64,000 bases of DNA from Micromonospora kangleipakensis (GTDB lineage Bacteria > Actinomycetota > Actinomycetes > Mycobacteriales > Micromonosporaceae): NCBI RefSeq assembly GCF_004217615.1, contig NZ_SHLD01000001.1, forward strand, positions 7,068,001 to 7,132,000. Reading direction: 5' to 3'. Below, one piece after another: positions 37,084 to 56,896 of this stretch (positions are counted from its first letter, which is position 1; every line of letters begins with the position of its first letter). A model generated the notes under the pieces. The model searched no databases. It saw only the letters and a program-made list of their open reading frames with translations, and had not been told where the DNA came from. The translations under genes were made by a program, and so were the position numbers.

Positions 37084-38604
37084 GTGGAGTTGGACTTCGA
37101 ACGGTGCTACCGGGCCGTGGACAGCCGTGACCAGCGGTTCGACGGCTGGTTCTACACCGGCGTGACCTCGACCGGGATCTACTGCCGGCCGTCCTGCCCG
37201 GCGACGACGCCGAAGCGGCAGAACGTCCGGTTCTTCCCGTCCGCCGCCGCCGCGCAGGGCGCCGGGCTGCGGGCCTGCCGCCGCTGCCGCCCCGACGCCG
37301 CCCCGGGCTCCCCGCAGTGGGACGTCCGCGCCGACGTGGTCGGGCGGGCGATGCGGCTGATCGCCGACGGGGTGGTCGACCGGGACGGCGTACCGGGGTT
37401 GGCGGCCAGGCTCGGCTACACCGAGCGGCACCTGCACCGGATGCTCCGCGCCGAACTGGGTGCCGGACCGCTCGCGCTGGCCCGCGCCCAGCGCGCCCAG
37501 ACCGCCCGGATCCTCATCGAGACCACCGGCCTGGGCATGGCCGAGATCGCGTTCGCCGCCGGGTTCGGCAGCGTCCGGCAGTTCAACGACACGGTCCGGG
37601 AGGTGTACGCGGCCGCCCCGTCCGAGCTGCGGATCAGCCGGGGCGGCCGGCCCGCGACCGGCGGGGCGGGCACGATCACGCTGCGGCTGGCGTACCGGCC
37701 GCCGCTGCACGCGACGGCGCTGCTCGACTTCCTCGCGCTACGGGCGTTGCCCGGCGTGGAGGAGGTCCGCGACGGGACGTACCGCCGGGGGTTGCGGCTC
37801 CCGCACGGGGCCGGCGAGGTCGCGCTGACCCCCGCCGACGGGCACGTCTCCGCGACGCTGCGGCTGGCCGACATGCGCGACCTGGCCCCCGCGGTCGCCC
37901 GCTGTCGCCGCCTGCTCGACCTCGACGCCGACCCGGTCGCGATCGACGAGACCCTCGCCCAGGACCCCGCCCTGGCCGCGGCGGTGGCTGTCGAGCCGGG
38001 AGTACGCCTCCCCCGCGCCGTCGACGGCTTCGAGATGGCGCTGCGCGCCATCACCACCCAACAGGTCTCCCTCCAGTCCGCCAGAACCACCCTCACCCGC
38101 CTCCTCCAGGCAGCCACCCCCACCCCCACCGGCCCGGGTGATCATGAAGTTGTTGCCCATGGACACGGCGTGTCAGAACAACAACTTCATGATCAACGCG
38201 AGCGGGAGCGCGGGCCGGGCGCGGCGCTGCGGGGGTTTGTCAGCGCGGGGGAGGTGGTGGGGTTGGGAGACAGCGCGTTCGGGATGCCGGTGGCGCGGCG
38301 GGAGACGATCCGGGCGCTGGCGCGGGCGGTCGTGGACGGGGAGCTCGAGCTGGAGCCGGGCGGGGACCGGGAGGAGACCGTGCGGCGGCTGACGGCGCTG
38401 CCCGGGATCGGGCCGTGGACCGCCGGCTACGTGGCGATGCGGGCCCTGGGCGACCCGGACGTCTTCCTCCCCACCGACCTCGCCGTCCGCCGGGGCGCGG
38501 CCGCGCTCGGCCTGCCCACCGACCCGAAGACCCTCGACGCGTACGCCGACCGCTGGCGCCCCTGGCGGTCGTACGCCGTGATCCGACTCTGGAGAGCAGC
38601 ATGA
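37084..38604 (+). CDS. alkA: Ada-AlkA fusion: alkylation-response regulator and 3-methyladenine glycosylase
   Basis: The 506-residue product has an N-terminal Ada zinc domain (Cys34, Cys38, Cys65, Cys68), an AraC-type DNA-binding region (about 85-185) and an AlkA glycosylase domain (about 200-505). The glycosylase has the helix-hairpin-helix LPGIGPWTAGYVAMRALGD and the catalytic aspartate region FLPTDLAVRRG. One Ada cysteine takes methyl from phosphotriesters and turns the protein into an activator; AlkA then removes alkylated bases. A 57-bp palindromic repeat (38139-38195) is built into the frame at residues about 352-371 between glycosylase helices. The stop overlaps ogt as ATGA. Confidence 0.9.
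   Translation: MELDFERCYRAVDSRDQRFDGWFYTGVTSTGIYCRPSCPATTPKRQNVRFFPSAAAAQGAGLRACRRCRPDAAPGSPQWDVRADVVGRAMRLIADGVVDRDGVPGLAARLGYTERHLHRMLRAELGAGPLALARAQRAQTARILIETTGLGMAEIAFAAGFGSVRQFNDTVREVYAAAPSELRISRGGRPATGGAGTITLRLAYRPPLHATALLDFLALRALPGVEEVRDGTYRRGLRLPHGAGEVALTPADGHVSATLRLADMRDLAPAVARCRRLLDLDADPVAIDETLAQDPALAAAVAVEPGVRLPRAVDGFEMALRAITTQQVSLQSARTTLTRLLQAATPTPTGPGDHEVVAHGHGVSEQQLHDQRERERGPGAALRGFVSAGEVVGLGDSAFGMPVARRETIRALARAVVDGELELEPGGDREETVRRLTALPGIGPWTAGYVAMRALGDPDVFLPTDLAVRRGAAALGLPTDPKTLDAYADRWRPWRSYAVIRLWRAA
38139..38195. repeat. Palindromic element copy A, in frame inside alkA
   Basis: TGATCATGAAGTTGTTG (38139-38155) and its exact complement (38179-38195) form 17-bp arms around a 23-nt centre that includes CACGGCGTGTC. 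At 57 bp (19 codons) it keeps the frame and encodes a hydrophilic stretch starting DHEVVAHGHG. A C-rich run (CCACCCCCACCCCCACC) precedes it and G-rich DNA follows. The second copy is at 55768-55824. Confidence 0.85.
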
Positions 38605-54828: not shown

Positions 54829-55635
54829 ATGCCACTGAGCCGCACCCTCGGGTCTATCACGGTCACCGCCCTCACCGACGGCGAGGGCCCGTTCTTCCAG
54901 TCCCGCGTCGAGGCGTTCCCCGACGCCACGGAGGCACAGTGGCGCGAGGCCGACCGGCGTGATCCCGCGTCGGTGACCGCCGACGGGGAGTGGTGGCTGC
55001 AGTTCCGCAGCTTCGCCGTCCACGGCGACGACGGGTCGGTGACGCTGGTCGACGCCGGCATCGGCCCGGCCGACTCGCTCGCCGCGGGCTGGGCGCCGGT
55101 GCCGGGCCGGCTGCCGGCCGAACTGGCCGCCGCCGGCATCGACCCCGCCGACGTGCGGACCGTGGTGCTGACCCACCTGCACAGCGACCACGTCGGCTGG
55201 GCGGTGACCGGCACGCCGGGCCGCCCCTACTTCCCCAACGCCGACTACGTGCTGCAGCGGACCGAGCTGGCAGCGCTGGAGCTGTTCCACCCCGAGCTGC
55301 CGGCCCGGCTGGTCGGCCCGTTGCGCGCCGCCGGCCAGCTCCGGGTGGTCGACGGCGACACCCCCCTCACCCCGGCGGTACGCGTGCTGAGCACCCCCGG
55401 CCACACTCCCGGCCACCAGTCGGTGCTGGTCGACTCCGGCGACGAGCGCCTGCTGCTCACCGGCGACCTGCTGGTGCACGCCATCCAGCTCGTCGACCCC
55501 GCCCTGGCGTACGCCCACGAGGTGGACCCGGCCACCGCCCGCGCCTCCCGCACCACCCTCCTGCACACCCTCACCACCGCCGCCCCCACCACCCTCGCCA
55601 CCCCCCACCTGACCACCCCCTTCACCCCCCTCTGA
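54829..55635 (+). CDS. Metallo-beta-lactamase-fold hydrolase
   Basis: The 268-residue protein has the metal-binding HLHSDH at 116-121, TPGHTPGH near 190 and TGDLL near 210, which suits a lactonase- or glyoxalase-II-like enzyme. The start ATG 54829 lies after GCAGGAGA, 30 bp upstream. The last 30 residues are Thr/Pro/Leu-rich and run up to the CCCTCR repeat array, which begins 13 bp after the stop; repeat expansion may have shaped this end. Confidence 0.82.
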   Translation: MPLSRTLGSITVTALTDGEGPFFQSRVEAFPDATEAQWREADRRDPASVTADGEWWLQFRSFAVHGDDGSVTLVDAGIGPADSLAAGWAPVPGRLPAELAAAGIDPADVRTVVLTHLHSDHVGWAVTGTPGRPYFPNADYVLQRTELAALELFHPELPARLVGPLRAAGQLRVVDGDTPLTPAVRVLSTPGHTPGHQSVLVDSGDERLLLTGDLLVHAIQLVDPALAYAHEVDPATARASRTTLLHTLTTAAPTTLATPHLTTPFTPL

Positions 55636-55647
55636 CCACCGCCCCCG

Positions 55648-55765
55648 CCCTCACCCTCACCCTCGCCCTCACCCTCGCCCTCGCCCTCGCCCTCACCCTC
55701 GCCCTCGCCCTCGCCCTCGCCCTCGCCCTCGCCCTCGCCCTCGCCCTCGCCCTCGCCCTCGCCCC
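55648..55765. repeat. Hexanucleotide tandem array (CCCTCR)n
   Basis: About 19.7 units of CCCTCG or CCCTCA lie without interruption between the MBL stop and the palindromic element. Four CCCTCA units are among the first eight; the rest are CCCTCG, so the array grew mostly from one end. The top strand is C-only apart from T, G and A at fixed places, giving strong strand asymmetry. It lies outside any credible gene. Confidence 0.9.
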
Positions 55766-55767
55766 GG

Positions 55768-55824
55768 TGATCATGAAGTTGTTGTCACCCGCCACGGCGT
55801 GTCGCGACAACAACTTCATGATCG
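55768..55824. repeat. Palindromic element copy B, intergenic
   Basis: GATCATGAAGTTGTTGTC (55769-55786) and GACAACAACTTCATGATC (55806-55823) form 18-bp arms around a 19-nt loop containing CACGGCGTGTC. Aligned to copy A (38139-38195), 47 of 57 positions agree; the arms and central 11 bases carry nearly all the identity. It joins the C-rich hexamer array to a G-rich tract. Confidence 0.85.
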
Positions 55825-55833
55825 ACGGGAGCC

Positions 55834-55891
55834 GGGGCGGGGTGGGAGGGGTGGGGGGTGGGGGGGTGGGGGGTGGGGGGTGGGGGGTGGG
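55834..55891 (+). other. G-run tract, potential G-quadruplex
   Basis: More than ten runs of three to seven G separated by single T, A or C residues occupy about 58 bases on the plus strand. By the usual rule of four or more G runs with short loops this can form several quadruplexes. It faces the (CCCTCR)n array across the palindrome. Confidence 0.7.
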
Positions 55892-55895
55892 ACGG

Positions 55896-55931
55896 CGAAG
55901 GGGCACGCCGGGGTGCCGGCGTGCCCCTTCG
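55896..55931. terminator. Perfect 16-bp terminator after mdh
   Basis: CGAAGGGGCACGCCGG (55896-55911) pairs with CCGGCGTGCCCCTTCG (55916-55931) around the loop GGTG. It is 15 bp beyond the mdh stop on the minus strand and would also stop transcripts from the MBL gene. Confidence 0.85.
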
Positions 55932-55945
55932 TGGGCTGGGTCGGG

Positions 55946-56896
55946 TCACATGTTGGCGACGTCGGCCTGCTTGGCGCGGACGGCCTCGGCGGCCGCGTTG
56001 AGGCTGGCCAGCTCGTCGGCGTCCAGGTCGGTCTCGACGATCCGCCGGATGCCCTCGCGGCCGATCTCGGCCTCGACGCCCAGGTAGACGCCGGAGATGC
56101 CGTACTCGCCGTCGACCCAGGCGCAGACCGGCATGATCTCGCCGGAGTCCTCCGCGACGGCCTTGGCCATCCGGGCGGCGGCGGCCGACGGGGCGTAGTA
56201 CGCCGAGCCGGTCTTCAGCAGGGCGACCACCTCGGCGCCACCGTTGCGGGTCTTGACGACCAGCTCCTCGATCTGCTCGGCGGGCATCGCCTCACGCAGC
56301 GGCTTGCCGTTGACGGTGCTCTTGGACGGCACCGGGACCATCGTGTCGCCGTGCGAGCCGAGGGTGAGGGTCTTGACCGACTTCACCGGTACATTCAGCG
56401 CCTCGGCGACGAAGTTGGTGAACCGGGCGCTGTCCAGCATGCCGGCCTGGCCGAGCACCCGGTTCTTCGGGAACTGGGTGGCGAGCTGGGCCAGCGCGGT
56501 CATCTCGTCGAGCGGGTTGGAGACGACGATGACGACGGCGTTCGGCGCGTACTTGGCGACGTTCTCGGAGACCTGGCGGACGATCTTGGCGTTGGTCTCC
56601 AGCAGGTCCATCCGGCTCATGCCCGGCTTGCGGGGCAGGCCGGCGGTGATGACCACGACATCGGAGCCCTCGATGGCCTCGTAGCCCTCGCCGTTCGGGC
56701 CGGTGGTGACGCCGACGACCTTGGTCTCGAAGCCCTCGACCGCGCGCGACTGGTTGAGGTCCAGCGCGAGACCCGCCGGCTTGCCCTCCACGATGTCGGT
56801 GATCACGACGGTGTCGAAGATGTCGTACTCGGCCAGGCGCTGTGCGGTGGTGGAGCCGTAGAAGCCGGCCCCGACGACAGTGACCTTCTTACCCAT
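55946..56896 (-). CDS. mdh: Malate dehydrogenase (lactate-dehydrogenase-like type)
   Basis: The 316-residue NAD-dependent enzyme interconverts malate and oxaloacetate. The dinucleotide-binding GAGFYGSTTA (8-17), the VITAGLPRKPGMSR substrate loop with its Arg, the SNPLDEM loop and the catalytic GSHGDTMVP histidine are all present. This subtype is shared by many actinobacteria and archaea. An internal codon choice at the loop supports malate over lactate (Arg in RKPGMSR). It is followed by a perfect hairpin. Confidence 0.93.
   Translation of the reverse strand: MGKKVTVVGAGFYGSTTAQRLAEYDIFDTVVITDIVEGKPAGLALDLNQSRAVEGFETKVVGVTTGPNGEGYEAIEGSDVVVITAGLPRKPGMSRMDLLETNAKIVRQVSENVAKYAPNAVVIVVSNPLDEMTALAQLATQFPKNRVLGQAGMLDSARFTNFVAEALNVPVKSVKTLTLGSHGDTMVPVPSKSTVNGKPLREAMPAEQIEELVVKTRNGGAEVVALLKTGSAYYAPSAAAARMAKAVAEDSGEIMPVCAWVDGEYGISGVYLGVEAEIGREGIRRIVETDLDADELASLNAAAEAVRAKQADVANM

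Follow-up and report, generated by a model that had tools for sequence, protein, structure and literature searches.

How a 57-bp palindrome comes to be read in frame within a DNA-repair gene of Micromonospora kangleipakensis is the question raised by the 64,000-nucleotide stretch of DNA analysed here (the window). A preliminary description had taken the element for an in-frame insertion of the kind known from Rickettsia, had pointed to a second copy elsewhere in the window, and had proposed that genomes be searched with the arm and AlkA orthologues be aligned.

The palindrome in ada-alkA

The features of the locus, in window coordinates, are:

37084..38604, plus strand: ada-alkA gene, 506 aa (Ada_Zn_binding 8-71, HTH_18 106-183, AlkA_N 199-314)
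38040..38139, plus strand: C-rich left flank within ada-alkA, GC skew -0.51 over 100 bp
38139..38195, plus strand: palindromic element of 57 bp, GTGTC-centre type, in ada-alkA
38139..38155, plus strand: left arm, 17 bp, its outer part GATCATGAAGTT common to the family
38156..38178, plus strand: centre, 23 nt, with CACGGCGTGTC at 38164-38174
38179..38195, minus strand: right arm, 17 bp, inverted repeat of the left arm
38140 to 38196, plus strand: element codons 353-371 of ada-alkA, GAT at 38140 being codon 353
38195..38294, plus strand: G-rich right flank within ada-alkA, GC skew +0.43 over 100 bp

The perfect 17-bp arms and 23-nt centre that had been claimed were confirmed at 38139-38155 and 38179-38195, and so was the in-frame reading, the 506-codon frame crossing the element without a stop. 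The 19 codons assigned to a loop of the glycosylase part are codons 353-371 and do fall in a variable loop. The product carries an Ada metal-binding domain, an AraC-type HTH and an AlkA N-terminal domain, while its last part matches solved AlkA chains; an HhH-GPD match at residues 400-495 is under Pfam's cut-off. Against chain 3oh6_A, DNA-3-methyladenine glycosylase 2, the insert lies between query residues 341 and 397, equivalent to residues 146-177 in the numbering of that chain. The predicted structure of the product (alignment of 5, mean pLDDT 49.5, residues 326-384 below 50) was set aside. As single-stranded DNA the element folds at -22.9 kcal/mol (z -5.67), and an Rfam scan of 37900-38400 gave four matches, all far under their gathering cut-offs. 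With up to 3 mismatches the arm 16-mer has five matches in the window, and the two copies' arms account for four; shuffles averaged 0.06 matches and none got to five.

The second copy and its surroundings are:

54829..55635, plus strand: metallo-beta-lactamase-fold gene, ending upstream of copy 2
55640..55768, plus strand: C-rich left flank of copy 2, a CTCGCC-like minisatellite, skew -0.60 in the last 100 bp
55769..55823, plus strand: second copy, from GATC to GATC, intergenic, same centre type as the alkA copy
55824..55923, plus strand: G-rich right flank of copy 2, skew +0.69 over 100 bp
55946..56896, minus strand: malate dehydrogenase gene (mdh), convergent, ending beyond copy 2

The near-identical copy announced at 17.6 kb is thus found 17,629 bp away, between convergent genes; the arms and CACGGCGTGTC are indeed alike, but the remaining centre differs. 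A terminator-like hairpin, judged by eye, follows the mdh stop at about 55897-55930. The CTCGCC-like minisatellite (55640-55767) adjoins copy 2, and similar tract growth is seen beside alkA copies of other species (L149, L150, L170 and L175). A further long inverted repeat, of score 16 and unlike the family in sequence, lies near position 138 of the window; its C-to-G flip is moderate (0.51).

An interspersed family in Micromonosporaceae

The element is one of an interspersed family of roughly 55-61-bp palindromes in Micromonosporaceae. The genome that contains the window (G000; 7,267,142 bases) has 33 copies with exact 12-bp ends. In our own typing of the family, with types named A, B, C and D/Q, 25 of them are of type A (CGGCGTGTC centre), seven of type D/Q (GATCAAGA arms) and one of type B (GATCTCC-like centre). 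By eye, its 40 exact arm matches are mostly paired at 39 bp with an arm of at most 2 mismatches, and a dozen weaker ones lack a partner. The proposed arm search of this genome and its relatives therefore revealed dozens of copies, not just the two of the window. Within the family, 71 of 250 genomes contain the exact-ended pattern; they belong to 8 of 44 genera and include 62 of the 63 genomes searched in the genus. The reversed-pattern control gave zero matches in the same 250 genomes. In a collection of 84,980 species the perfect type-A pattern returned 116 stretches, titled Micromonospora (105) or Verrucosispora (11), and a 61-nt type-A query had zero matches in the phage and plasmid collections. 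Between the GATC ends 263 copies measure 52-58 nt, a spread bounded by a search pattern that allowed about 50-60, and 205 of them are H-armed copies of 55 nt.

Some further observations concern the distribution of copies. The region from 3.85 to 6.01 Mb of the window's own genome (2.2 Mb, about 30% of the chromosome) has none of the 33 exact-ended copies. Among 117 copies collected across genomes (L240-L355), 33 lie less than 500 bases from a locus edge, several at contig ends, as if assemblies break there, and at L195 and L207 two family copies are 48 and 29 bp apart.

No description of the family was found among the literature matches listed, in which subscription papers are thinly covered. 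Among those matches, strings of the element's sequence occur in two off-topic papers, on plant microsatellites and on salmon colour, and the word palindromic in the excerpt of PMC5765111 refers to CRISPR, not to the present family.

Anatomy of arms, centres and ends

Arm pairs 9, 13, 14, 15 and 17 are formed, in 164 intergenic 55-nt copies with H arms, at a frequency that none of 300 shuffles attained, and both sides of the pairs show changes. The remaining outer arm positions are nearly invariant, although the outer 12 bp seem so partly because the search patterns required them (the arm pattern demanded the outer positions, with at most 2 mismatches per arm). Many of 280 distinct centres hold CGACACGCCG, GGAGATC or AGCGCT, each at a fixed position, and 6-mers of the CGACACGCCG/CGGCGTGTCG motif recur at a fixed place in 114-145 of these copies. 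Motif orientation is independent of gene direction (32:26, p 0.51). Covarying inner pairs, fixed motifs and free orientation thus suggest recognition at the DNA level, by sequence in the outer part and by structure in the inner part, and the element probably acts as DNA and not as one RNA strand.

Family copies have terminal inverted repeats. Their ends read GTY/RAC and are inverted, not direct; the TGATCA at both ends is self-complementary and could hide a target duplication. No T run follows the hairpin, the flanks being C-rich and G-rich instead. In the carB-pyrD gap of one locus (L369) we noted a shorter, GC-richer palindrome whose pairing is kept through changes in both arms and which, by eye, looks like an ameliorated copy.

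Position relative to genes

Genes were called with a simple, purpose-made codon-usage caller. In a set of 213 distinct copies, enriched for alkA by the queries used, 83 lie between codirectional genes, 74 between convergent and 9 between divergent ones, and 47 are inside an ORF; outside alkA the last class shrinks to three, all in weak ORFs. A sample gathered independently of genes comprised 117 perfect-armed copies in 116 loci, 33 of them too near an edge and 84 classifiable: 41 codirectional, 30 convergent, 7 divergent and 6 inside an ORF, five of these six in alkA and one in a weak ORF. Among 36 copies classed in the window's own genome, the alkA copy and one in a weak ORF are the only ones inside a reading frame. 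The entry into many genes implied by the likeness to Rickettsia elements is therefore not supported, convincing coding copies being found in alkA only. Of 71 codirectional copies, 59 are closer to the upstream stop than to the next start (medians 41 and 112 nt), and 15 of 183 adjoining gene ends take the element's own TGA as stop.

Strand asymmetry of the flanks

Read towards the element, the flanking strand has a C content of 0.62 and a G content of 0.20 at 10-20 nt, and the two are equal at 250-300 nt. In flank statistics on 152 of the 213 copies (alkA, mdh and inside-ORF copies dropped), 142 show a flip above the 97.5th percentile of 304 control positions, and the window's two copies hold ranks 1 and 2 for flip among all window positions. 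The maximal flip is 0.79 in convergent gaps with a copy (n=27) versus 0.27 in those without (n=49), 0.75 (n=35) versus 0.29 (n=181) in codirectional gaps, and 0.66 (n=3) versus 0.32 (n=80) in divergent ones. With copy-less gaps low on average, we reject on the whole a flip that would be a property of convergent gene junctions. Seven mdh junctions have no visible copy: four, including that of G032, which is nearest to the window's species in the alkA tree, flip by 0.78-0.94 in 80-bp windows (L211, L212, L215, L219), and three by 0.28-0.54 (L216, L229, L236). The flips there may mark remnants, or the flip may exist independently of the element.

Several sources of the asymmetry were considered. 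An origin in transcription direction was rejected, the skew being 0.386 on the promoter side and 0.368 on the 3' side (p 0.50), as was growth with copy age, since skew strength bears no relation to arm mismatches (rho 0.01, n=152). Within alkA the skew was not ascribed to the copy: third-position skew is stronger in 53 rows with a palindrome score of at least 11 (-0.39/+0.44), but the rows are related to each other and the remaining 37 also show it (-0.27/+0.31). Predicted G-quadruplex motifs occur on 171 of 304 outward strands, on one opposite strand and on two at 450-600 bp; shuffling the same flanks gave 115 outward motifs on average and at most 131. In other genera the flip is 0.89 in g32 (n=9) and 0.36, 0.37 and 0.22 in g58, g30 and g53 (n=3 each). 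The symmetry of the flip resembles replication-origin skew and may derive from recurrent processing of the hairpin.

The proximity to upstream stops, together with an approach that is C-rich and G-poor on both strands, would suit a bidirectional transcription terminator, in which a C-rich RNA for Rho loading is followed by a hairpin readable from either side. Copies in the middle of alkA and between carB and pyrD speak against such a role, as do the equal skew on promoter and 3' sides, the terminator-like hairpin that mdh has of its own (by eye), the free motif orientation and the missing T run, and we regard it as improbable.

The alkA loop across the genus

An alkA match was found in all 101 genomes searched, some of them partial, and the loop was retrieved from 90. 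A recognisable family palindrome, of several types, is present in 55 of the 90 loops, six have a remnant and 29 have none, so that the proposed orthologue alignment leaves 35 of 90 without a recognisable full copy. Of the 90 loops, 89 have a length divisible by three. In the exception (L171, the alkA of G036) the palindrome-bearing loop is one base off frame and the protein match is split in two there. The frame used contains no stop in any of the 54 well-preserved alkA copies, while 145 of 209 other copies are free of one (Fisher 5e-8, kinship ignored), and the Q-armed type measures 55 nt in 10 of 13 alkA copies versus 7 of 30 elsewhere, where it is mostly 54 (p 0.002, kinship ignored). A palindrome that keeps its host gene open, as originally envisaged, is thus borne out by 89 of 90 loops and 54 of 54 copies, but convincing cases were seen in alkA only. 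There are signs that the frame and openness of the alkA copies are kept by selection; the peptide they encode is probably without function of its own and tolerated.

The state of the loop has changed often. A tree of 90 rows, built from the coding flanks by a quick method, requires no fewer than 20 changes of presence and no fewer than 19 of centre type. Three near relatives (L090, L092 and L159) have at alkA a type-A copy, a GATC type and none, respectively. The closest relative in this tree, G032, has another type at alkA, no copy at mdh and a slightly damaged type-A copy at carB-pyrD. Eleven alkA copies with exact GGCGTGTC share one orientation throughout, which may reflect shared descent.

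Fixed addresses and probable replacement in place

Among 172 equal-length alkA pairs with flanks more than 85% alike, 85 have the same centre, 85 have unrelated centres and two look inverted; pairs at 93-95% identity occur in both the same-centre and the unrelated-centre group. Vertical inheritance with template switching at the hairpin would homogenise arms and invert spacers, as an excerpt of PMC8604942 describes, with no exchange between copies. The covarying inner pairs agree with it, and template switching may still maintain the arms. As an account of the whole it is very improbable: alkA genes 93-95% alike carry unrelated, non-inverted centres, the arm class changes too (in the G095/G098 comparison below), and spacer inversion as the source of centre change was rejected at 2 of 172 pairs.

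Other addresses behave similarly. At carB-pyrD (best 30 of 100 genomes by protein match) 19 of 30 species have a copy, and 10 of the 19 copies start exactly 19 nt past the carB stop, three of type A and seven of type B by eye; in five of the 11 without a copy the carB stop overlaps the pyrD start. The mdh junction (best 30 of 101 genomes) has a copy with at most 3 mismatches in 15 of 30, of types A, B and Q.

The genomes of two species, G095 and G098, permit a comparison over many loci. From G095 we retrieved 50 of 58 copies, and from G098 25 of 37 in 24 loci (one holding two). Counterparts were found for 17 of the 24, of which L426, matching by chance over 268 bp, was discarded, and seven had none among the retrieved G095 loci. 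At the 16 shared addresses flank identity is 77-95% (median 92-93%); nine have the same centre and seven, including alkA and mdh, a different element. In one pair (L428/L448) the two left flanks stay almost identical right to the edge of the element, and there a 55-nt H type in one genome faces a 54-nt Q type in the other. With the two-copy locus L440 excluded, six replaced and nine retained pairs have identities of 0.94 and 0.92 at 50-150 bp, of 0.83 and 0.82 over the first 50 bp, and of 0.63 and 0.76 over the first 10 bp. Flank identity being alike in replaced and retained pairs, no long tract accompanied the change; the exact borders are blurred in most pairs because the base pairs next to a copy diverge fast. 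Arms of the GAGGTTGrCG kind, counted by eye, are found in five of the seven replaced G098 alleles and in none of the nine retained ones. A succession of different types at one address is thus well supported. To the element first described, these data add skewed flanks, other types and wholesale replacement at fixed addresses, all three missing from the preliminary description.

Possible origin of the type changes

The reading that we favour, and hold to be probable by a modest measure, is that the addresses are old and inherited and that the palindromes residing there give way, in place, to other members of the family. These addresses would have been inherited mostly just 3' of genes, with one coding address in the length-variable AlkA loop. 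Recognition would proceed through the shared outer 12 bp plus a hairpin or cruciform, and a resident copy would be swapped whole for one of another type. Since the types are nearly equal in length, replacement in alkA can keep the frame, and selection would purge alkA copies with a stop or a wrong length. Copies might recombine ectopically or exchange cassettes through the outer arms that they have in common, presumably with a protein as the driver, and recurrent processing at the hairpin could yield the C-to-G strand flip of the flanks. Ectopic gene conversion on its own is a strained explanation, since ordinary RecA recombination needs a longer stretch of homology than 12 bp. Alternatively, a copy may have been lost and a new one inserted at its former site, which the states of L090, L092 and L159 fit, or a short allelic tract may have come in from another species.

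A non-autonomous mobile element, similar to MITEs or RPEs, could likewise be inserted, lost and reinserted in trans by a transposase, with sites like the alkA loop as hotspots. Copies that are dispersed and variably present at orthologous sites (alkA, mdh, carB-pyrD), along with arm types prevalent in some species but not in others (by eye), accord with it, and the five species with overlapping carB stop and pyrD start offer candidate empty sites. It is harder to reconcile with different types at nucleotide-exact addresses (10 of 19 copies at carB-pyrD), with the flanks kept in the replaced G095/G098 pairs, and with GTY/RAC ends and no clear target duplication. Y1 transposases (PF01797), the candidate class tested in a search that yielded no mover enzyme, number zero in the window's own genome and are present in 4 of 25 carrier and 1 of 9 non-carrier genomes; a RAYT/Y1 mover was accordingly rejected for the 21 of 25 carriers without one. 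Overall we consider such an element rather unlikely.

Replacement in place at inherited addresses may be part of something larger. We tentatively put forward, as a conjecture with a smaller chance of being right than the replacement itself, a Micromonosporaceae DNA system that exchanges whole palindromic cassettes among fixed addresses and recognises them by a structured centre together with the outer 12 bp. One type after another would sweep a genome and replace the residents, as the GAGGTTGrCG arms of G098 may illustrate, leaving an origin-like skew and rewriting a 19-residue segment of a repair enzyme. The alkA copy is a natural experiment, in which a repair enzyme tolerates the wholesale replacement of that segment, and, should an enzyme carry out the exchange, it would represent a precise replacement system for short cassettes.

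Comparison with known systems

Integron attC sites have end boxes of a set orientation; those of the present element face the other way, and this affiliation was rejected. REP elements sit mostly 3' of genes and have a GTAG-type head. The Micromonospora palindromes resemble the REP/RAYT system in being small, numerous and mostly 3' of genes, but their ends are symmetric and lack such a head.

The Correia, ERIC and RUP MITEs are short and dispersed and have terminal inverted repeats, according to an excerpt of PMC2229807. The present palindromes share these traits; they differ in their nearly fixed length, in exchange at fixed addresses, and in that no parental transposon was seen at the arm matches of the window's own genome. 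Near-perfect palindromes are also maintained in the coding DNA of Nematomorpha mitochondria (an excerpt of PMC6649704), as in alkA; those, however, lie in organelle genes, and a dispersed sequence family does not appear in that excerpt.

Excerpts of PMC10969869 and PMC2229807 describe RPEs as interspersed palindromes lying in frame in protein genes that remain unbroken, 105-146 or about 150 bp long and present in many unrelated genes, and RPEs lose repeat identity with time in the account excerpted from PMC6649704. Being in frame in a gene that is left open, the alkA palindrome has in RPEs its nearest known precedent in effect, as first suggested. The parallel fails in length (about 55-61 bp), in gene range (one gene only) and in behaviour, as residents are replaced by other types and most arms stay perfect or covary, unlike the decaying repeats of those excerpts. 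The usual account of small palindromic repeats has them insert once and decay afterwards. In Micromonospora the address persists and its content is swapped, at many loci per genome and with a strong symmetric strand flip at nearly every address, so that the movement of such repeats becomes testable by strain comparison.
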